A DNA stretch of 25,847 nt, taken from the IMG/VR virus record IMGVR_UViG_3300032093_000748, positions 1-25,847 of that record; one strand, 5' to 3'. The DNA is from a virus. A program made the position numbers and the translations under genes. The notes beneath the pieces are model-generated. The model did not search any database and had not been told where the DNA came from. It worked only from the letters and a program-made list of their open reading frames with translations. This document shows positions 268-12,188 of the stretch, piece by piece (within the stretch, counting starts at the first letter, position 1; the number at the start of each line of letters is the position of its first letter).

Positions 268-288
268 ACGGTTTGCCTTCCGTTAATA

Positions 289-311
289 AGTAGTACCACG
301 GTGGTACTACT
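289..311. promoter_or_regulatory. 23-bp perfect dyad upstream of the leftmost gene
   Basis: AGTAGTACCAC at 289-299 is the exact reverse complement of GTGGTACTACT at 301-311, around one central base. As RNA on the minus strand it forms a 9-bp stem with a 5-base loop, directly followed by TATTAACGGAAGGCAA, the ribosome site of the 267 start. As DNA it could be a dimeric repressor site. The position just ahead of the ribosome site matches the leader hairpins at 999-1013, 2355-2369 and 6574-6587, though I see no -10/-35 pair above this one. Confidence 0.6.
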
Positions 312-360
312 AGCGCCCGCCGCAGAGATTGCATCTGCGCTGGCCCACTAGGGGCGGGCT
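312..360 (-). other. GC-rich nested stem structure between two genes
   Basis: GCCCGC at 315-320 pairs with GCGGGC at 354-359, enclosing CGCAGA at 321-326 paired with TCTGCG at 334-339. The two six-bp stems share a continuous strand and could stack coaxially, with a single-stranded or weakly paired CCTAGTGGG segment opposite. It starts six bases after the stop of the upstream gene. It may be a terminator lacking a T-tract, an RNA processing or stability element, or a small structured RNA. It is far more GC-rich than its surroundings. Confidence 0.45.
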
Positions 361-366
361 GTTAAA

Positions 367-703: not shown

Positions 704-982
704 TTAGAAACCTGCTTTCTTGTCATGTGCAACTGCAATTGCACCTGCGGCATCATTAAGTTTTTCACCTGCGGCAAGAATGTCAGCACCTATTAAATTA
801 AACATTTCTGCTGGCATTGTTTGTAGAATTTTTGTTAATTGATTAACTGTGCGTTGTAATTGTGTTGTCTTGGTTGCTAATGATTTTAGTGAAATTGTTG
901 ATGCAACCATTTGATCAACTGCATAGTAATTAAGATCTTGAAAACCGTTACCGCCAATTGATCCTGTGTACTTCTTGTTCAT
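704..982 (-). CDS. Hypothetical helical protein (92 aa)
   Basis: Starts MNKKYTGSIGGNGFQDLNYY. The centre (residues 28-60) is a regular run of polar and hydrophobic residues (LKSLATKTTQLQRTVNQLTKILQTM) that looks like an amphipathic helix or short coiled coil, and the C-terminus is alanine-rich. No family recognised. This is the first gene of its transcript: a TTGACA-17-AATAAT promoter lies at 1023-1051, a hairpin at 999-1013 and a GGAGAAGG ribosome site just before ATG 980-982. The strong promoter and ribosome site suggest high expression. Confidence 0.7.
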   Translation of the reverse strand: MNKKYTGSIGGNGFQDLNYYAVDQMVASTISLKSLATKTTQLQRTVNQLTKILQTMPAEMFNLIGADILAAGEKLNDAAGAIAVAHDKKAGF

Positions 983-998
983 TTGCCTTCTCCTTTGT

Positions 999-1013
999 GG
1001 GGATCTTTTCCCC
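999..1013 (-). promoter_or_regulatory. 5' leader hairpin, copy A
   Basis: The minus-strand RNA reads GGGGAAAAGATCCCC: a GGGGA/TCCCC stem with a 5-base loop. It begins about three bases after the transcription start predicted from the -10 box at 1023-1028 and is followed by ACAAAGGAGAAGGCAAATG. Copy B at 2355-2369 is nearly identical in sequence and placement. Confidence 0.6.
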
Positions 1014-1022
1014 TATGGCGTA

Positions 1023-1051
1023 ATTATTGCCTTTTTGGGAAACAATGTCAA
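1023..1051 (-). promoter_or_regulatory. Strong sigma70-type promoter for the 982 gene
   Basis: On the minus strand a perfect -35 TTGACA (1051-1046) is followed by exactly 17 bases and the -10 AATAAT (1028-1023, 5 of 6 to TATAAT). Predicted start of transcription is near 1016. It sits just past the stop codon of the 1065-1256 gene. Confidence 0.75.
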
Positions 1052-1064
1052 ACACATTTTGGAA

Positions 1065-1256
1065 CTATTTTTGGGATAAACACCTGCGGCAGATCAGGGG
1101 GTGAACCTGAGCCTGGTCAGGCTGGACATGTATAGGGGCTTGGGAGCGGTCTAGGACCACCATTGGGGCGCAGGTGGCAGTTCCCAGGATCTTGCACCCC
1201 GTATGCCACTTGCCTGCCCCGCTAGAGGCTGGAAAAAAGATTTTGTAGCCTCTCAT
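1065..1256 (-). CDS. GC-rich small zinc-finger-like protein (63 aa)
   Basis: Residues H18, C21, C29 and the pair C56/C59 (ICRRCL) give a metal-binding pattern; GKWH followed by spaced cysteines and a C-terminal CRRCL is common in tiny actinobacterial and actinophage proteins. The coding DNA is clearly different from its neighbours: 98 of 160 bases (61%) are G or C in 1081-1240, against 17 of 60 in 1381-1440, which suggests recent arrival from a high-GC genome. AGGAG lies eight bases before ATG 1254-1256, and the ATG overlaps the stop of the preceding 27-codon frame as TAATG. Binding partner unknown. Confidence 0.65.
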   Translation of the reverse strand: MRGYKIFFPASSGAGKWHTGCKILGTATCAPMVVLDRSQAPIHVQPDQAQVHPLICRRCLSQK

Positions 1257-1339
1257 TATTTGGACTCCTGGGTGAGTTCAATCAGCCTTTGGGCCAAGTC
1301 AGCCAATTCTTGTAAAGATGGCAATAGTTCTTCTGACAT
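1256..1339 (-). CDS. 27-residue microprotein, translationally linked
   Basis: Encodes MSEELLPSLQELADLAQRLI followed by ELTQESK. It is one acidic amphipathic helix. Both ends are TAATG overlaps: its ATG shares a base with the stop of the 1339-1548 gene and its stop shares a base with the next ATG at 1256. This chain of exact stop/start overlaps is the main reason to call it a gene. No domain is recognisable; it could be a binding peptide, or a leader that mainly carries ribosomes to the next gene and supplies its AGGAG site. Confidence 0.55.
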   Translation of the reverse strand: MSEELLPSLQELADLAQRLIELTQESK

Positions 1340-1548
1340 TAGACGGTTGCTCCCCAAATTTCTTTAACTGGTACTGCATCACCGTAACTATAAATGTGAT
1401 GAAAAATTGTAATTTTTTTATTGTCACAAATATGACGGCGGCCAGCCCGTATTGCAGGGTGAAAATTTACAAACAATTGTGAATCAATCCCGCAAGTATC
1501 GCAATGAGATGAAAAATAATGTCTAGGTGGAGGTAAAATTTTATCCAT
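1339..1548 (-). CDS. Small Cys/His protein (69 aa)
   Basis: Starts MDKILPPPRHYFSSHCDTCG. C16 and C19 (CDTC) with H39/C41 (RRHICD) form a likely zinc-binding set. A longer frame opens at 1671, but ATG 1546-1548 is chosen because it overlaps the upstream stop as TAATG and has GGAGG eight bases ahead. Its stop overlaps the start of the 27-residue gene in the same way. One of three consecutive small Cys-rich genes (1065-1742). Function unknown; DNA or RNA binding would be a guess. Confidence 0.65.
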   Translation of the reverse strand: MDKILPPPRHYFSSHCDTCGIDSQLFVNFHPAIRAGRRHICDNKKITIFHHIYSYGDAVPVKEIWGATV

Positions 1549-1742
1549 TACTTTGCCTCCGCGTGATAATCGCAATCGCCTGGTTTTGGAACTCTGCATT
1601 TGTGAGCAAATGGAATTATTTTGTTGCCGCCGTATGTAGTAGAAACGGCGGCTGGATCGCTTAAATACCAATTGCCCTTGGCGCTAAAAACCCAAACAAG
1701 ATTTTCAACGCCACATTTTTTGCAAGTGATGTATTTAGTCAT
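1548..1742 (-). CDS. Small zinc-ribbon-like protein (64 aa)
   Basis: CKKCG at residues 7-11 and HKC at 47-49, with further C57 and H60, frame an aromatic core (NLVWVFSAKGNWYL). This CxxCG...W...W.L...HxC layout is seen in many short actinophage proteins of unknown role. The start ATG 1740-1742 has no good ribosome site but lies two bases after the preceding stop, so translation is probably coupled. The stop overlaps the next ATG as TAATG. Confidence 0.7.
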   Translation of the reverse strand: MTKYITCKKCGVENLVWVFSAKGNWYLSDPAAVSTTYGGNKIIPFAHKCRVPKPGDCDYHAEAK

Positions 1743-1744
1743 AA

Positions 1745-2107
1745 TTACTTGGCCAACATTTCTCTAGTAACAAGTTTGCCTTGGTAGTAATTAACTTGTG
1801 ATTTGTTTAATGGGCAAAGAATTCCTTTGTTGCAACGGCATGTAACTGACTCAGGGTGAATATTAATGACAACCTGGTAATCAACTTTACCTGTTTGATC
1901 AAGTGTTGTCTGAGTTACAATTACTGGATATTGTTGTTTAATCAAACTAGCAATGTGTTCTTCCATGTTAGATTTATCATTCATAACTTTTGAATCCCAA
2001 GAAAGGTAATCGCCTTCAATAAATTTTTCCATATTGACTGCACCTGTTGGGCTAATTGCTGTAACAACATATTTATTCGCTTCGTTAAATCTAGGTAGTG
2101 AATTCAT
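1745..2107 (-). CDS. Hypothetical protein with CxC..C tail (120 aa)
   Basis: Starts MNSLPRFNEANKYVVTAISP. A basic and beta-rich body (YPVIVTQTTLDQTGKVDYQVVINIHP) is followed by C90, C92 and C98 near the C-terminus, which may bind metal. No family recognised. It lies two bases after the stop of the 2110-2337 gene and two before the next start, so it belongs to the operon that starts at the promoter at 2380-2408. Confidence 0.65.
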   Translation of the reverse strand: MNSLPRFNEANKYVVTAISPTGAVNMEKFIEGDYLSWDSKVMNDKSNMEEHIASLIKQQYPVIVTQTTLDQTGKVDYQVVINIHPESVTCRCNKGILCPLNKSQVNYYQGKLVTREMLAK

Positions 2108-2109
2108 AA

Positions 2110-2337
2110 TTAGTTACCCACCTTCTGAATTACAACTGGGCGGGAATCAATAAAGCGGATACCGTATTCACGGGCTAATTGTGTTGCTTCAACTTTGTTG
2201 TTAGCCCAAATAGTTTTAAAAGTTAATTGACGGGCTACATCTACATCTTGAAAAATTACATTGTATTCAAAGCGAGCGTTCATACGCTTGCCTGTAAATA
2301 TTAATTGCAACTTGTCATCTGATATTACTGTGTTCAT
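2110..2337 (-). CDS. Hypothetical protein (75 aa), first gene of its operon
   Basis: Starts MNTVISDDKLQLIFTGKRMN. The sequence alternates beta-like and helical stretches (ARFEYNVIFQDVDVARQL; KVEATQLAREYGIRFID), with no cysteines and no recognised domain. It follows promoter 2380-2408, hairpin 2355-2369 and an AAAGGAGCAAGGCAA ribosome site; this leader is a near copy of the one in front of the 982 gene, though the proteins are unrelated by eye. Confidence 0.7.
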   Translation of the reverse strand: MNTVISDDKLQLIFTGKRMNARFEYNVIFQDVDVARQLTFKTIWANNKVEATQLAREYGIRFIDSRPVVIQKVGN

Positions 2338-2354
2338 TTGCCTTGCTCCTTTTT

Positions 2355-2369
2355 GGGGAACTTTTCCCC
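2355..2369 (-). promoter_or_regulatory. 5' leader hairpin, copy B
   Basis: RNA on the minus strand reads GGGGAAAAGTTCCCC, a GGGGAA/TTCCCC stem with a 3-base loop. It begins three or four bases after the predicted transcription start and is followed by AAAAAGGAGCAAGGCAAATG. It differs from copy A by one base inside the hairpin, which keeps the stem intact. Confidence 0.6.
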
Positions 2370-2379
2370 TACAAAAGAA

Positions 2380-2408
2380 ATACTAGGACTTTGGCAAGAT
2401 GATTGCAA
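2380..2408 (-). promoter_or_regulatory. Promoter for the 2337 gene
   Basis: Minus strand: -35 TTGCAA (2408-2403, 4 of 6), 17-base spacer, -10 TAGTAT (2385-2380, 4 of 6). The boxes are weaker than at 1023-1051 but spacing and the position of the following hairpin are the same. Confidence 0.5.
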
Positions 2409-2426
2409 GCATTTGTGGCACTTTTT

Positions 2427-2834
2427 TTAGGATTTTTTACGCTCATTTTCCTGGGAAAAGGGTGATTTGGGCCACACTTGCACCCAAACCCCAGGTTCAG
2501 GGCCATATTCCTTGGTAGCCCACAGGTTAGTTACCTGCCCATCATCACGGTATGCAATTGCAGTTAGTCCATCTAAAACTGCTCTAACTAATTTATCTAA
2601 ATCAGGAGCAACAGATGGATCTTGTCTTGTAACAGTTTTTGGTTTTACAAATGTAAATATCATTTCAATCATTACTGCTTCGCTATGTGGTTTTGCACCC
2701 GCTTGTTTTGCGGCTAATGCAATTGCGCTTCTCCATGATGCGAGCGCTGATCCTTGTGAATGAATAACACGGCCATGAATAACTTTCATAGATCCCTGTG
2801 GGATCGGTTGTCCTTTTACTTCAAAAGTTATCAC
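2427..2834 (-). CDS. rusA: RusA-family Holliday junction resolvase
   Basis: 135 residues, the usual RusA length. RusA is a dimeric endonuclease that cuts four-way junctions during phage recombination and replication. The N-terminal PQGSMK segment (residues 12-17) and the acidic core are present: PDLDKLVRAVLDG gives D78, D80, K81 and D88, followed by YRDDGQVTNL with D97/D98 and K108, matching the family's metal-binding aspartates. The start is GTG at 2832-2834, overlapping the upstream stop (GTGA). There is no ribosome site, but a TACACT box sits exactly six bases before the GTG, so a leaderless transcript is possible in addition to coupling. Confidence 0.88.
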   Translation of the reverse strand: MITFEVKGQPIPQGSMKVIHGRVIHSQGSALASWRSAIALAAKQAGAKPHSEAVMIEMIFTFVKPKTVTRQDPSVAPDLDKLVRAVLDGLTAIAYRDDGQVTNLWATKEYGPEPGVWVQVWPKSPFSQENERKKS

Positions 2835-3019
2835 ATATAAAGTGTAACTAAATCCGTCACAATTACAATTTGGTCATGTCCAGTTTGATCTATTCCGTAA
2901 ATATCATAAGCGCCACATCTGTCAGGGCCTTCAATGTATTTGATAGTTAGATCTTTATTTTTAGCAACAACATGATCACCTGGTTGTAAAACACCTGGTT
3001 CAACAGTATGCGCTTTCAT
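2831..3019 (-). CDS. Hypothetical small protein (62 aa)
   Basis: Starts MKAHTVEPGVLQPGDHVVAK. The N-terminal half, with VLQPGDHVVAKN, looks like a small beta-barrel opening of the kind seen in SH3-like folds, but no family is assigned. TAGGAG lies five bases before ATG 3017-3019, a good ribosome site. The gene overlaps rusA by GTGA. Two short dyads lie just upstream (3033-3045 and 3052-3062), suggesting its own regulation. Confidence 0.65.
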   Translation of the reverse strand: MKAHTVEPGVLQPGDHVVAKNKDLTIKYIEGPDRCGAYDIYGIDQTGHDQIVIVTDLVTLYM

Positions 3020-3032
3020 TACAACTCCTATC

Positions 3033-3062
3033 TGTAATAATTACATTAATGGTAACAGTTAC
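3033..3062. promoter_or_regulatory. Two adjacent short dyads upstream of the 3019 gene
   Basis: TGTAAT-A-ATTACA (3033-3045) and GTAAC-A-GTTAC (3052-3062) are each perfect odd-length palindromes, seven bases apart in the 57-base gap between the replication-initiator-like gene and the 3019 gene. They resemble paired operator half-sites. No convincing promoter boxes were found in the gap. Confidence 0.4.
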
Positions 3063-3076
3063 GGATAATGTTTGCG

Positions 3077-3871
3077 TTATTTTGTAGCAATCTTTTTGAC
3101 AAGTTCCCGTAATTCTTGTGGTGGTGGTACGGCTCTTTGTCGCTGTAATTCTTGTTCCCTCTGCCACTCCACAAATTCCTGGCGCTCGCGTTCTGTTTTC
3201 TCTTTGCTTTGTTGTAATTCTTTTTCCCTCTTTTCTTCAGGAGATAAATTACGCACTGGCAAAGCGTCATCAAGCCACCTGTGAGCGTTTATCCATGTTG
3301 CGGGGTGTGCTGTGTATGTTGGAACTCTATTAGGGTCTGATAAGTACCTTGTAGCCCCTTCTATGATGATCTGTGGTTCAGTTGTTTGAATTGCTTTTAG
3401 CCATGACTTGAAAGCGGCTTGTTTAGCAACTTTGCGTGGATAGATTTTCCAAAATTCTTCAAACAACTCTGATGGTTTAATTGATGTTTCTCTAGGGTGG
3501 TTCATAGGGCGTGATTGTCCACCCGTTACTGCCGTCAATGTCACCCCGTTAGCGTCATTGCTACGCCCCGTCACAATGTCAGCCCGTAATTTATTTATAT
3601 TAATCTGATAAAGATGCGGCCTGCGGTCCTCTCTGCAATTAGCAGAACCGCCAGCGCCTTTAAACATTCTGATGAATCCCCGCTCAACCAAATTGTTTAC
3701 AGATCGCTGTACGGTCCTGATGCTGATAGATGCTTTGGAAGCAATAGTGGCTTGTGATGGATACGATTGCGTTCCTTCATCATTTGCGTGATCAGCAATT
3801 ACCAACAGAACCATCTTCTCCACTGTTGGCAAACTTGTTCTCCAAACATCTGACATCAATCTGATGCTCAT
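3077..3871 (-). CDS. HTH replication-initiator-like DNA-binding protein
   Basis: About 264 residues. Residues 31-80 form a winged-helix domain of the HTH_36 type (YPSQATIASKASISIRTVQR, then LVERGFIRMF), a family common in phage replication-initiation proteins. The C-terminal half has the pattern FEEFWKIYPRKVAKQAAFKSW and YTAHPATWINAHRWLDD typical of such proteins, followed by a long charged helix (EEKREKELQQSKEKTERERQ). It likely binds an origin or loads replisome proteins. Start: GAGGA lies six bases before ATG 3869-3871, whereas the in-frame ATG at 3875-3877 is only one base from it, so the shorter form is preferred. That ATG overlaps the stop of whiB as ATGA. Confidence 0.75.
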   Translation of the reverse strand: MSIRLMSDVWRTSLPTVEKMVLLVIADHANDEGTQSYPSQATIASKASISIRTVQRSVNNLVERGFIRMFKGAGGSANCREDRRPHLYQININKLRADIVTGRSNDANGVTLTAVTGGQSRPMNHPRETSIKPSELFEEFWKIYPRKVAKQAAFKSWLKAIQTTEPQIIIEGATRYLSDPNRVPTYTAHPATWINAHRWLDDALPVRNLSPEEKREKELQQSKEKTERERQEFVEWQREQELQRQRAVPPPQELRELVKKIATK

Positions 3872-4194
3872 AGACATTCCTCAATCTGATCTAAACTAAT
3901 TCCTAATTTTTCAAAAGAATCAATGGCGCGTTTTAATTGATTTGGGTATTTGCTAGGAAATCTGATGCCCACTCTTTCAATGCTAGTCATTCCGCCCCAC
4001 ACTCCGTAATTTTCATTCTCCATGGCGTAAGTTAGACAATCTTTCCAAATAGGGCAAGCCGCGCAAATACTGCGTAATGCGTTGATGTTTTCATACGCCA
4101 ACACGCTCCGTTCTTCTTCTACGCGGTAAAAAAGATCAGTGTAAATTTCTTTACAACCTGCTTTTTCCCAATCTACTTCGCTGTACTTGGGCAA
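3868..4194 (-). CDS. whiB: WhiB-family Fe-S transcription factor
   Basis: WhiB-like proteins are actinobacterial regulators carrying a 4Fe-4S cluster and acting with the primary sigma factor. The four cluster cysteines are present: one in EKAGCKEIY, then CAACPIWKDC (CxxCx5C), followed by the GVWGG turn that defines the family and a basic C-terminal region (RFPSKYPNQLKRA). The longest frame begins at 4239, but TTG at 4192-4194 with GGGGGAG upstream gives 108 residues beginning LPKYSEVDWEKAGC, closer to normal WhiB length. It overlaps the end of the nuclease gene. In phage TM4 a WhiB is known to interfere with host WhiB2 and superinfection; a similar role here is inference. Confidence 0.93.
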   Translation of the reverse strand: MPKYSEVDWEKAGCKEIYTDLFYRVEEERSVLAYENINALRSICAACPIWKDCLTYAMENENYGVWGGMTSIERVGIRFPSKYPNQLKRAIDSFEKLGISLDQIEECL

Positions 4195-4841
4195 CCTATC
4201 TCCCCCGTTGGATCGTAATACGGACAATAAGATGCACAAAATGCAATTGGCTTTTCAGGTTCAGGTGCAGTTTTATTTTGCGCCACAATATCTTTGATTT
4301 CCTGTAACCAATCCAATGCGTCTAATGCAATTGCGGGGTTATATGGTTCTTTGTGTACCAAGATGTCCTTCATGCCGCCATCACGGGGAATACCGACTAG
4401 GGCAACATCTTTTACTTCATAACCATTGTTTGCTAATAGCCAACCGTAAAGTTGGATTTGCCAGCGTTGTTGTTGATTGCCAAAGTATCTAGCGCCTTTT
4501 TTTGTAGTTGTTTTCCAATCTACAACCAGCCCTTGATCTTTAATAAATAAATCACAATGACCTTTTAGCCCTTCGTGACTTACTTCTAACTCAATTAAAT
4601 AATTATCACCAAATGGATCTAAACGCTGTATTGATTTTTCTACACCGCTATGAATAAAAGTACCCAAGATTGCGGCAAGAGTTTCAGTCTGATTTGTTTT
4701 TTCCGTCTGTTTTAAATCATGCCAAACCCTGCGCCTGCAACCGCCAGCACTTGATGGACCTATCTCTATTTGTTTAGATCTAGCCCTGGATTGATCATGG
4801 CCAACTAATGATTTAGTTAGCAGATCTTGTAGATCAATCAC
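4173..4841 (-). CDS. Cas4/RecB-like Fe-S exonuclease (PD-(D/E)XK)
   Basis: 222 residues. Nuclease motifs in order: GTFIHSGVE with H64, GHCDLFI with D97, VVDWKTT with D108 and K110, and QIQLY (Q128-Y132). An N-terminal SSAGGCRRRVW (C35) and a C-terminal FCASYCPYYDPTGEIGC (C202, C206, C217) supply the four cysteines that hold the iron-sulphur cluster in Cas4- and AddB-like nucleases. Such phage enzymes resect DNA ends for recombination or processing; no CRISPR genes are near. The start ATG overlaps the upstream stop as ATGA. Together with the annealing-protein candidate (5978-6553) and RusA it forms a recombination set. Confidence 0.88.
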   Translation of the reverse strand: MIDLQDLLTKSLVGHDQSRARSKQIEIGPSSAGGCRRRVWHDLKQTEKTNQTETLAAILGTFIHSGVEKSIQRLDPFGDNYLIELEVSHEGLKGHCDLFIKDQGLVVDWKTTTKKGARYFGNQQQRWQIQLYGWLLANNGYEVKDVALVGIPRDGGMKDILVHKEPYNPAIALDALDWLQEIKDIVAQNKTAPEPEKPIAFCASYCPYYDPTGEIGCPSTAK

Positions 4842-5044
4842 AGTTTGTCCTCATTCCATTGTTCTTCACCAAAAATTGCGCGGGTGTCTAAAACCATTTT
4901 GTCCATATCCAATTGCACTGACTCCATTAAAATTTCTGCCTCTTTTAATGTTTTCTGCGCCTGCATTAAATGAAAAAACATGCGTGCGTAATGAAACCAA
5001 TAACCAAAAAATAAACCAAAGCACAAAAAAATTATTGATCTCAT
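4838..5044 (-). CDS. Single-pass small membrane protein (68 aa)
   Basis: Residues 4-27 (IIFLCFGLFFGYWFHYARMFF) form one hydrophobic, aromatic-rich segment at the N-terminus, followed by a charged helix (AQKTLKEAEILMESVQLDMD) likely on the cytoplasmic side. It is placed unexpectedly inside the recombination operon, with ATGA overlaps at both ends. It could anchor a complex at the membrane or act in superinfection exclusion; neither is shown. No family recognised. Confidence 0.7.
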   Translation of the reverse strand: MRSIIFLCFGLFFGYWFHYARMFFHLMQAQKTLKEAEILMESVQLDMDKMVLDTRAIFGEEQWNEDKL

Positions 5045-5409
5045 GTTAGGTCCATACTGGTGCGGACTGAAGTTCCAACGGATCTTGCAATCTCTACCTG
5101 GGTTTTGAGCCGTATAGTATTAGCGCGAGCCGCTTTTACCAAAGCCTCTACTGTTCCCATACGCTCATGTAATTCAGCATTTTCAATTAATGCTAAATCC
5201 TCACGCTCTCCTACTGTGTAATTTTTTCCATTAGGTGCAGATTTTTGAGTAAGGCTAATGCGTGTACGGGCTACGGCTAATTCATATTTAGATTTAGTTT
5301 GGTGATAATCCAATTCCAAATCAACCATATTTTCATGCGCTTGGTCTATTTCTTTAGATAGTTCCCGCAAACGCTTTTCTATCATTGCAGGTGTAATTAT
5401 TTCATTCAT
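5041..5409 (-). CDS. Coiled-coil protein (122 aa)
   Basis: Starts MNEIITPAMIEKRLRELSKE. Almost the whole protein is predicted helix with heptad-like spacing (residues 10-55 and 75-110), broken by a turn at SAPNGKNYTVGERED. This two-helix layout resembles small phage proteins of unknown role found beside recombination genes. The frame is open from 5484, but ATG 5407-5409 is preferred because GGAGAG lies eight bases upstream and it overlaps the previous stop by eight bases. Stop overlaps the membrane-protein start (ATGA). Confidence 0.7.
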   Translation of the reverse strand: MNEIITPAMIEKRLRELSKEIDQAHENMVDLELDYHQTKSKYELAVARTRISLTQKSAPNGKNYTVGEREDLALIENAELHERMGTVEALVKAARANTIRLKTQVEIARSVGTSVRTSMDLT

Positions 5410-5677
5410 CAGCAGGCTCTCCTTGCGGTACAGGATCTTGTACAACTTGTAAGTTTGAGTTCTTATGTTTTTCTTGCAATGCAATTACTTTGCCTGCATC
5501 TGAAGATAGGTTAAAAGGATCAGGTATAAATTGAAATCCCATTTCCTCCATAGCCTCAGCCAATGCTTCAGGGAAGATGTCCAGGGCTGATGCAACCGCT
5601 CTAATGCCCAGGATATTTTGATGCACGGCTACTACAAATCCAGCATCAGGTTTGAACTTTTTTTGTTTATCACTCAT
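5402..5677 (-). CDS. Hypothetical small protein (91 aa)
   Basis: Starts MSDKQKKFKPDAGFVVAVHQ. The middle (NILGIRAVASALDIFPEALAEAMEEMGFQFIPD) looks like a helical domain with a possible HTH-type turn; the tail is polar and proline-rich. No family recognised. The longer frame from 5716 is rejected: ATG 5675-5677 overlaps the preceding stop as ATGA and GAGGAAGG lies about nine bases upstream. Confidence 0.65.
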   Translation of the reverse strand: MSDKQKKFKPDAGFVVAVHQNILGIRAVASALDIFPEALAEAMEEMGFQFIPDPFNLSSDAGKVIALQEKHKNSNLQVVQDPVPQGEPADE

Positions 5678-5985
5678 AGCAACATGCCTTCCTCTGCTGA
5701 TCGCCAAACAATGCAATCATTTCCGTGTTGGTTTTTTCTTGTTGTTCCTGTGTCCATAATAAATCCATCTTTAACAAGACTTATCCTGGTAGGTCTGATG
5801 GTGTTGCCATCTATGTTTAGTGTGGTTTCCATTTCTTGATCTGTTGCACCGCGTAGCCCTTGGTTCAAAATGTACTCATATACCTTGCGGCGTAGTGATC
5901 CTGTTTTTGGCAGGATCTTTTGAGCGGCGGCAATAGATGTGCGCTGTGCGTTATGGGCAATTACAACCTTGTTGTCATCAAGCAT
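5674..5985 (-). CDS. Winged-helix DNA-binding protein (103 aa)
   Basis: Residues 30-90 fit a winged helix: RRKVYEYILNQGLRGATDQE (helix 1 and start of helix 2), MEMTT-like turn, GNTIRPTRISLVKDGFI (recognition helix) and the wing MDTGTTRKNQHGNDCIVW. This kind of domain is frequent in phage regulators and primosomal helpers. It overlaps the end of the annealing-protein gene by eight bases. It may regulate the operon or act with the replication protein; the domain assignment is from pattern only. Confidence 0.65.
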   Translation of the reverse strand: MLDDNKVVIAHNAQRTSIAAAQKILPKTGSLRRKVYEYILNQGLRGATDQEMETTLNIDGNTIRPTRISLVKDGFIMDTGTTRKNQHGNDCIVWRSAEEGMLL

Positions 5986-6553
5986 TTAATTCATTTTTCT
6001 TTGCAAGGATTGCATCACGCAATGTAGTGCCATCAACACTTACATCTAGAAGATCAGCATTTAATTGCCAGGCTGATTTAAGTTCATCTAAATCAGTAGT
6101 GCCATCAATCAAAGCCATTATTGCGGTAGCGCTAGCCACTTCTTCTTGTGTGTATTCGCGTTTTGCTTTTGGAGTTTTTGCTTCAGGTGCTTCTACGCGC
6201 TGTGCCTTTTCCATATCTTGACGCAAAGGCCGTGTTGGTTTTTTTGTATTTGGATCTGTACCTAAATAACCAGCAAGACTTAATGCTCTGCCAGTTGCGC
6301 TTGTAGATGCGTTTTCTAGTGCTGATGATTTGTTTACAAAAGAACTGCCAACCATTTCTTCTGCTACATCAACAAACATTAAAACATCACCGTAATAAAT
6401 TTGGCTTTCAACAATGTATTGAATGGGCCGTAATGTTTCAGGATCACGCACTACATCAATAATTTTTGCGTGAATCCGTAGATCTTTGTGGTCTGCATGA
6501 ATTCGTACTAGACGCTCTGCGGCGGTTTCGTAGCCTTCAAAGTTTCCTGCCAT
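5978..6553 (-). CDS. Probable single-strand annealing/recombination protein
   Basis: 191 residues starting MAGNFEGYETAAERLVRIHA. The segment SALENASTSATGRALSLAGY (residues 77-96) matches the E(N/T)xxTSAxGRALxxxGY signature found in ERF/Rad52-like phage annealing proteins and relatives. The C-terminal 80 residues are a charged linker (EAPEAKTPKAKREYTQEE) and a small helical domain. Being first in an operon with a Cas4-like exonuclease fits an exonuclease/annealase pair. ATG 6551-6553 is chosen over the open frame to 6631 because GGAAGG lies upstream and a promoter (6599-6627) falls inside the extension. Family assignment is moderate. Confidence 0.6.
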   Translation of the reverse strand: MAGNFEGYETAAERLVRIHADHKDLRIHAKIIDVVRDPETLRPIQYIVESQIYYGDVLMFVDVAEEMVGSSFVNKSSALENASTSATGRALSLAGYLGTDPNTKKPTRPLRQDMEKAQRVEAPEAKTPKAKREYTQEEVASATAIMALIDGTTDLDELKSAWQLNADLLDVSVDGTTLRDAILAKKNELNA

Positions 6554-6573
6554 TGCCTTGCCTTCCTGTATGT

Positions 6574-6587
6574 GAGCCTTGTGGCTC
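6574..6587 (-). promoter_or_regulatory. 5' leader hairpin, copy C
   Basis: The minus-strand RNA GAGCCACAAGGCTC forms a 5-bp stem with an ACAA loop about five bases after the predicted transcription start and is followed by ACATACAGGAAGGCAAGGCAATG. The sequence differs from copies A and B but the placement and the AAGGCAA ribosome site agree. Confidence 0.5.
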
Positions 6588-6598
6588 TTGGTGGGGAA

Positions 6599-6627
6599 AT
6601 TATGGGGGGCGGGTCTGACAATTACAA
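6599..6627 (-). promoter_or_regulatory. Promoter of the recombination/WhiB operon
   Basis: Minus strand: -35 TTGTAA (6627-6622, 4 of 6), 17-base G/C-rich spacer, -10 CATAAT (6604-6599, 5 of 6). Predicted start near 6592. It would drive the genes from 6553 down to about 3077. Confidence 0.6.
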
Positions 6628-8729: not shown

Positions 8730-8747
8730 GCCCCGCCGTAGCGGGGC
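8730..8747 (-). terminator. Rho-independent terminator after the lysis cassette
   Basis: GCCCCGC (8730-8736) and GCGGGGC (8741-8747) form a 7-bp G/C stem with a 4-base loop, followed on the minus strand by TTTCTT. It stands seven bases past the stop of the last lysis gene and ends the late transcript. The flanking AAAG and GTTTCTTT would also allow some function in the other direction. Confidence 0.9.
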
Positions 8748-11857: not shown

Positions 11858-12188
11858 TTACAATCTCCCATTCTTGGTTTTCTTCATTCCAGTTATAGAT
11901 ATTTTCATCATCAGGTTTGGCTACTGGTGCTTGCCAATCATGGTTATCATCTAATGTCCATGAGTCAAAAGGTTTTGGCGCAATAAATACATCAGCATCT
12001 GCGTCATACTTGAATCCAACACCAGCATATTGTTTGCGTATGCGGTTGTTGTATGAAGTCTGAACCCATGTACCACCAAGTCCTAGATCATTAGCAAGAA
12101 AATCATGACCTCTATGTTCTTGGTCATCTCCTACTACTAGAACTCTAAGTACAGTTCCGTTTTCATCTATTTCAGCAAAGTGTGCCAT
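11844..12188 (-). CDS. Conserved tail-fibre-region protein (114 aa)
   Basis: Starts MAHFAEIDENGTVLRVLVVG. The run HRGHDFLANDLGLGGTWVQT, SYNN-R-RKQYAGVGFKYD and the tryptophan repeats FDSWTLDDNHDWQAP and YNWNEENQEWEIV are characteristic of a protein found near tail fibres in many marine and freshwater phages; it is thought to be a virion or fibre-associated protein but its role is not settled. The frame opens at ATG 12197, only two bases after AAGGAG; the ATG at 12186-12188, eleven bases after it, matches the usual MAHFAEID start. Confidence 0.8.
   Translation of the reverse strand: MAHFAEIDENGTVLRVLVVGDDQEHRGHDFLANDLGLGGTWVQTSYNNRIRKQYAGVGFKYDADADVFIAPKPFDSWTLDDNHDWQAPVAKPDDENIYNWNEENQEWEIVNVTE

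Follow-up and report, generated by a model that had tools for sequence, protein, structure and literature searches.

What keeps the same arrangement of promoter, short hairpin and ribosome site in front of several gene starts of one virus? The question is raised by the IMG/VR virus record IMGVR_UViG_3300032093_000748, a stretch of 25.8 kb with 41% G+C that we analyzed at its full length and refer to as the window. A preliminary description of this stretch proposed that a common leader controls mRNA stability or translation across the early genes, possibly read by an RNA-binding factor of the phage or its host. Our comparison of the window with related viruses shows, at the level of sequence, that what selection keeps, in a fixed position after the -10 element of promoter-proximal genes, is the pairing of the hairpins and not their sequence. 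That the hairpins are selected structures is almost certain; that they act mainly by protecting the mRNA, as a 5'-terminal stem-loop, is the role toward which we lean, by analogy with characterized systems.

Leaders in the window and in related viruses

The promoter, hairpin and ribosome-site layout described earlier for starts 982, 2337 and 6553 is borne out by the sequence: all three have a promoter with a 17-nt spacer, a hairpin of 5-6 bp located 9-12 nt past the -10 element and a ribosome site, all on the minus strand. The 982 leader consists of the -35 element TTGACA (1046-1051), the -10 element AATAAT (1023-1028), the hairpin GGGGA-AAAGA-TCCCC (999-1013) and the ribosome site AAAGGAG/AAGGCAA (983-995), followed by ATG. 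The 2337 leader, for which the comparative evidence is the strongest of all positions, combines TTGCAA (2403-2408) and TAGTAT (2380-2385) with the hairpin GGGGAA-AAG-TTCCCC (2355-2369) and the same ribosome site as the 982 leader, while the 6553 leader has TTGTAA (6622-6627), CATAAT (6599-6604) and the hairpin GAGCC-ACAA-GGCTC (6574-6587), then GGAAGGCAAGGCA. The stem was said to be kept despite a base change between the 982 and 2337 copies; a stem does remain, but the A/T difference is not compensatory and takes it from 6 to 5 bp. Folded singly, the three leaders are only slightly and not significantly more stable than their shuffled versions (z of -1.40, -1.13 and -1.30), and therefore the window alone is insufficient and the relatives carry the case. 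No match at gathering score to the Rfam families was found in the window.

Relatives, which are uncultured phages from lakes, were gathered by protein-guided scans, and whole contigs were read. A conserved RusA gene lies just upstream of the 2337 position and makes this gap comparable across many viruses; 80 loci gave 39 nonredundant viral leaders. A hairpin was counted when its stem had 4 bp or more, three or more of them G-C, and ended 12-22 nt ahead of the next start; by this definition, 34 of the 39 leaders had one, compared with 5.1 (standard deviation 1.8, maximum 9) in shuffles. These 34 hairpins are made of 19 different stems and 28 different loops. The stems include GGGGAA/TTCCCC, GGGAG/CTCCC, GGGAC/GTCCC, GCCCCA/TGGGGC and GGAAC/GTTCC as well as GGTTC/GAACC, GGATC/GATCC, GAGAC/GTCTC and GGGAAGC/GCTTCCC; their outermost pair is G-C without exception, and if the arms are exchanged among leaders, pairing is retained in only 22% of the cases.

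For the analysis of covariation, we aligned 22 distinct hairpins of 15 nt, 21 from the 2337 position and the 982 hairpin of the window (alignment A6). This hairpin-only alignment was used for the counts; a MAFFT alignment (A5) shifted the stems by one base. All 110 of the 110 cells are paired and both sides have changed at four of the five pairs, so the compensatory changes for which the preliminary description had looked to relatives are present. Cells changed on both sides number 24 against 4.4 in shuffles, and the covariation score of 0.661 compares with 0.131 (standard deviation 0.038) for shuffled hairpins and at most 0.279 for slid structures. As A6 was picked for a hairpin length of 15 nt, its complete pairing leans upward, and the test with 34 of 39 leaders is the unbiased one.

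In most genomes, two leaders of the same genome carry different repeats. In one virus (L095, genome G015), unlike in most genomes, the 18-nt hairpin GGGCTTTACCCGAAGCCC stands unchanged before both start 2322 and start 5674, although the flanks differ; the duplicate may have been copied recently, or the two leaders share a site that is recognized.

Two further elements of the preliminary description come out differently. AAGGCAA is indeed enriched before starts, being found within 20 nt of 5 of the 47 window starts where 0.4 would be expected from its density, but it is best taken as a form of the ribosome site and no separate motif, because its place in the relatives reads GAAGGC, GGAGGC or AAAGGC. 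Start 267, listed as a fourth start with a hairpin, was rejected as a member of the leader class. Its 10-bp hairpin (289-311, minus strand) is part of a larger folded gap and was not counted as the leader type: the 99 nt before the start (268-366, minus strand) form a two-part fold (-40.4 kcal/mol, z -2.6) and contain no promoter in register, and for these reasons the element is of another kind. The gap may be a separate conserved RNA. Near position 12102 of genome G008, the GGCGGGCGCT core of this gap is kept together with a different 9-bp hairpin (AGAAATACC/GGTATTTCT versus AGTAGTACCA/TGGTACTACT). The suggested use across the early genes is only partly right: within the replication and small-gene region, the leader marks those starts that are promoter-proximal, with start 267 excluded.

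The association with promoters was assessed in a genome-wide survey, for which genes were called by a custom script with approximate starts and shuffles that keep the dinucleotides served as the control. Among 71 nonredundant promoter-type starts, defined as ATG codons that follow a gap of 45 nt or more, 19 are preceded at a distance of 16-23 nt by the end of a stem that is 5 bp or longer, with ~2.9 expected. Distance classes nearer to the start show no excess; the farther classes of 24-27 and 40-43 nt show smaller excesses, some of them terminator-like. Operon-internal starts, on the other hand, have a hairpin within the 12-26 nt range in 12 of 246 cases against 9.0 expected, which is no excess, and we conclude that the hairpins mark promoter-type starts. 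Consistent with this, -10-like hexamers are concentrated 9-11 nt before the stem and rare elsewhere, and a TTG-type -35 element (TTGnnn) is found 16-18 nt above the -10 element in most leaders.

Gene rearrangements tell the same story. In three relatives (G004, G005 and G017), an additional small gene has come to lie before the 6553 homologue; it is this inserted gene that is preceded by the promoter and by a hairpin of the GGGCT type, and the old start of the 6553 homologue is without a hairpin. The hairpin therefore appears to belong to the 5' end of the transcript and to no particular gene. The downstream gene is likewise exchangeable: homologues of window genes 2337, 2107, 1742 and 702 follow the 2337-position leader in different viruses, and in G001, a near-identical copy of the 982 leader precedes a different gene of 278 aa. 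In the 6553 leader of G001-G003, the stretch from stem to ATG is 5 nt longer and the promoter-stem part is unchanged. A related phage carried by a metagenome-assembled genome (MAG) has hairpins at two starts, including GGGGC-AGAGC-GCCCC before its 6553 homologue. No clear hairpin pattern was found in phiPsal1 and DSL-LC01, in which the numbers are small.

Roles of the hairpin

In the protective reading, the message would begin with 2-4 unpaired bases, as predicted from the 9-11 nt between the -10 element and the stem, and continue with a GC-rich hairpin of 4-7 bp and an unstructured A/G-rich stretch holding the ribosome site. The stem would hide the 5' end of the RNA from the initiators of decay in the host, that is, from pyrophosphate removal and then 5'-end-dependent RNase E/J; polycistronic phage messages would thereby live longer, and the ribosome site would be left open. 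There are precedents for such an effect. The Mycobacterium tuberculosis RNA DrrS is stabilized by a 5-bp GC stem-loop at its 5' end, and the same stem-loop, placed just after the RNA start, increased lacZ expression threefold in M. smegmatis (PMC5360333). In Escherichia coli, 5' hairpins hinder RppH and stabilize bla mRNA, and this behavior of 5' stem-loops is established in both E. coli and Bacillus subtilis (PMC3997798). Among phages, the T4 gene 32 mRNA is stabilized by a 5' hairpin according to work cited in PMC8948821. Of the suggested common leader for stability or translation, the shared structured leader stands, with paired changes in the relatives, and stability is its likeliest role by analogy. 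A factor of phage or host that reads the hairpin by its sequence finds no support and is disfavored, because relatives have different stems and loops, as do, in most cases, the leaders of one genome.

Several observations weigh against a protective role. In mycobacteria, the addition of at least two 5' bases destabilizes DrrS (PMC5360333), and E. coli RppH accepts two unpaired bases and prefers three or more (PMC10667835), both of which conflict with the predicted tail of 2-4 bases. An RNA start one or two bases nearer to the stem would remove this conflict, and the exact RNA start decides the mechanism. The 34 stems at the 2337 position contain no G-U pairs, which is also expected of a DNA palindrome. 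Stems are more similar within a genome (0.667) than between genomes (0.517; 0 of 5000 permutations), a likeness that pure structural protection does not need. Finally, the MAG that carries the related phage shows weak enrichment at its own starts (8 vs. 4.0).

Some of the same features could be explained by translation, with the hairpin acting on ribosome loading, be it by keeping the site single-stranded, by blocking pairing between leader and gene or as a standby structure, and with stability as a secondary effect. The distance from the stem end to the start codon is narrow, mostly 16-22 nt, the core of the ribosome site is ~8 nt past the stem in the commonest hairpin class, and the A/G-rich, T-poor stretch that follows the stem looks selected for openness. 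We nevertheless consider this explanation unlikely, as operon-internal starts need ribosomes equally and yet lack the hairpin; moreover, the 5-nt extension in the 6553 leaders of G001-G003 alters the distance from stem to ATG and keeps the promoter-stem part, and after gene insertion, the hairpin stays with the promoter. The absence of G-U pairs would suit a DNA operator, an inverted repeat at about +3 to +18 that binds a dimeric phage regulator with a specificity differing by phage group. The placement is typical of operators, a minority of genomes have nearly the same repeat at two leaders (982 and 2337 in the window; the duplicate in G015), and the authors who described start-associated inverted repeats in actinobacterial phages took them for sites on the DNA (PMC3203893, PMC4351075). 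In the majority of genomes, however, the repeats at the two leaders are different, and the arms are spaced 7-12 bp from center to center, beyond the usual tolerance of a rigid dimer. The loop bases are, in addition, strongly strand-asymmetric (A 0.57 and T 0.06 on the RNA strand), and among the scanned window proteins there is no obvious CI/Cro-type repressor, a WhiB protein being the only regulator found. We regard an operator role as quite improbable; an operator common to the leaders of a genome was rejected because, despite a weak within-genome resemblance, the repeats are mostly different.

The predicted position of the hairpin at the very start of operon transcripts would also suit an element of transcription elongation that acts on RNA polymerase near the promoter, as a signal for pausing or antitermination in the manner of the HK022 put RNAs. 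One short stem of free sequence is unlike the put RNAs, and no antitermination target was found, leaving this explanation with very little probability. The chance that the hairpins are intrinsic terminators of the upstream gene, or accidental inverted repeats in GC-rich gaps, is smaller than any of these and close to negligible. A pattern scan does score 995-1018 and 989-1003 as terminator-like on the plus strand, but on the coding strand the stem is followed by no T run, T making up 0-6% at each of the next seven positions, and this excludes terminators; furthermore, the counts are far above those in shuffles and tied to -10 sites.

Protection of the mRNA thus being our preferred reading, it can be extended, tentatively and with considerable doubt, to the whole phage group: freshwater actinobacterial phages may tip nearly all promoter-proximal messages of the replication region with a generic hairpin of freely drifting sequence. 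Such a hairpin would cap the RNA structurally against the enzymes that degrade it in a streamlined and little-studied host, and its sequences may have diversified so as to escape nucleases or regulators that would recognize them. Protective structures at the 5' ends of mRNAs have been known as isolated cases. In a phage group that has a hairpin after most promoters, dozens of natural stem variants at one site provide a ready, evolution-tested set of leaders for directly testing 5'-end-dependent decay in Actinobacteria. As the hairpin would mark the RNA start, it also offers a sequence-independent way to locate promoters and the starts of operons in phages that are represented by metagenomes alone.

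Genomic setting and host

Nearly all genes of the window are on the minus strand. The structural genes, including those for the tail, extend from ~25 kb down to 9 kb and are followed by a replication and recombination block with start 6553 at its head. The first gene after the 6553 leader (5978-6553, minus strand; 191 aa) encodes a PHROG 11717 protein of unknown function, and the block further contains a Cas4/PD-(D/E)XK-type exonuclease, a WhiB-type transcription factor (PF02467; 3868-4194, minus strand), a replication initiator and the RusA resolvase (2427-2789, minus strand). After it come small genes with starts 2337, 982 and 267 and no function assigned; the first gene after the 2337 leader (2110-2337, minus strand; 75 aa) is replaced by other genes in relatives, and that after the 982 leader (704-982, minus strand) encodes 92 aa. 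The WhiB protein may act at the leader promoters, and CTTGTnnTTGTC is kept in the -35 region of the 6553 family. A block at 3020-3076 (minus strand), in the gap that separates the replication initiator gene from the one after it, is conserved across relatives (CAAACATTATCCGTAACTGTTACCATTAATGTAATNATTACAG) and contains the repeated palindromes GTAACnGTTAC and GTAATnATTAC; it may be the replication origin or a site to which the initiator binds. An intergenic perfect 7-bp GC-rich inverted repeat at 8730-8747 has a terminator-like score on both strands.

Among known phages, the window has no megablast relative, and the closest named phages have only single proteins in common with it. The exonuclease-based scan led to contig RGDC01000007.1 of the Actinomycetota MAG WB6_1B_195, on which a related phage or prophage segment (L219) has the gene order of the window; the RusA-based scan of genome contigs for a host link gave no match. 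Together with the WhiB gene and the matches of window proteins to Arthrobacter- and Pontimonas-phage proteins, the MAG relative suggests an actinobacterial host. The MAG itself is a possible lead to the host group.

Comparison with known systems

The leaders share with the 5'-terminal stabilizing stem-loops (E. coli ompA and papA, the engineered bla, B. subtilis aprE and DrrS) a short GC-rich stem before the ribosome site, which here is predicted to lie at or near the 5' end of the RNA as it does in those systems. The likeness to DrrS goes further, to the 5-bp length and the probable actinobacterial setting, and the DrrS stem is portable to a reporter. Those cases are, however, single RNAs that were tested experimentally, whereas here a leader layout is repeated in a phage group and known from sequence alone; the unpaired tail predicted for it may also weaken protection. 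The T4 gene 32 leader is similar in being a phage mRNA with a 5' hairpin, which in T4 confers stability. The CUUCGG hairpins of T4-type phages reuse one extra-stable loop, whereas here both loops and stems vary freely. The put antitermination RNAs of HK022 are recognized through a conserved sequence and two stem-loops near the promoter, in contrast to the single stem of free sequence in our leaders.

Other repeated elements of actinobacterial phages also lie just upstream of nonstructural gene starts, with inverted repeats before the ribosome site. The start-associated sequence (SAS) of Cluster K phages consists of a single conserved sequence of 13 bp that overlaps the ribosome site, and for the repeat of its extended form (ESAS), the changes did not, according to the authors, support RNA pairing (PMC3203893). 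SAS/ESAS-type elements are also found in Cluster EF (PMC7302621). In our leaders, the sequence is free and the pairing is kept: a conserved sequence repeated at the ribosome site (GGGATAGGAGCCC) is absent, the stems differing within most genomes and the site varying between GAAGGC and GGAGGC, and in the 15-nt hairpins, no changes break the pairing. Cluster O phages have 17-bp repeats (PMC4351075), and the 18-bp repeats of Microbacterium Cluster EG phages are inverted repeats at an almost equal distance, 14-22 bp before start codons. The Cluster EG repeat is one invariant sequence (GATCAACCNNGGTTGATC), and most of the sites examined lie past the end of the gene before them and have no -10 element in register. 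One invariant repeat at many sites, as in Clusters EG and O, is not what we see with 19 distinct stems at a single position. A search of the open-access literature gave no description of a phage group in which a hairpin leader is locked to promoters and free in sequence. The leaders thus resemble SAS/ESAS and the repeats of Clusters O and EG in placement only, the defining features of those elements having failed in the comparison; in their predicted working, they are like the 5'-terminal stabilizing stem-loops.

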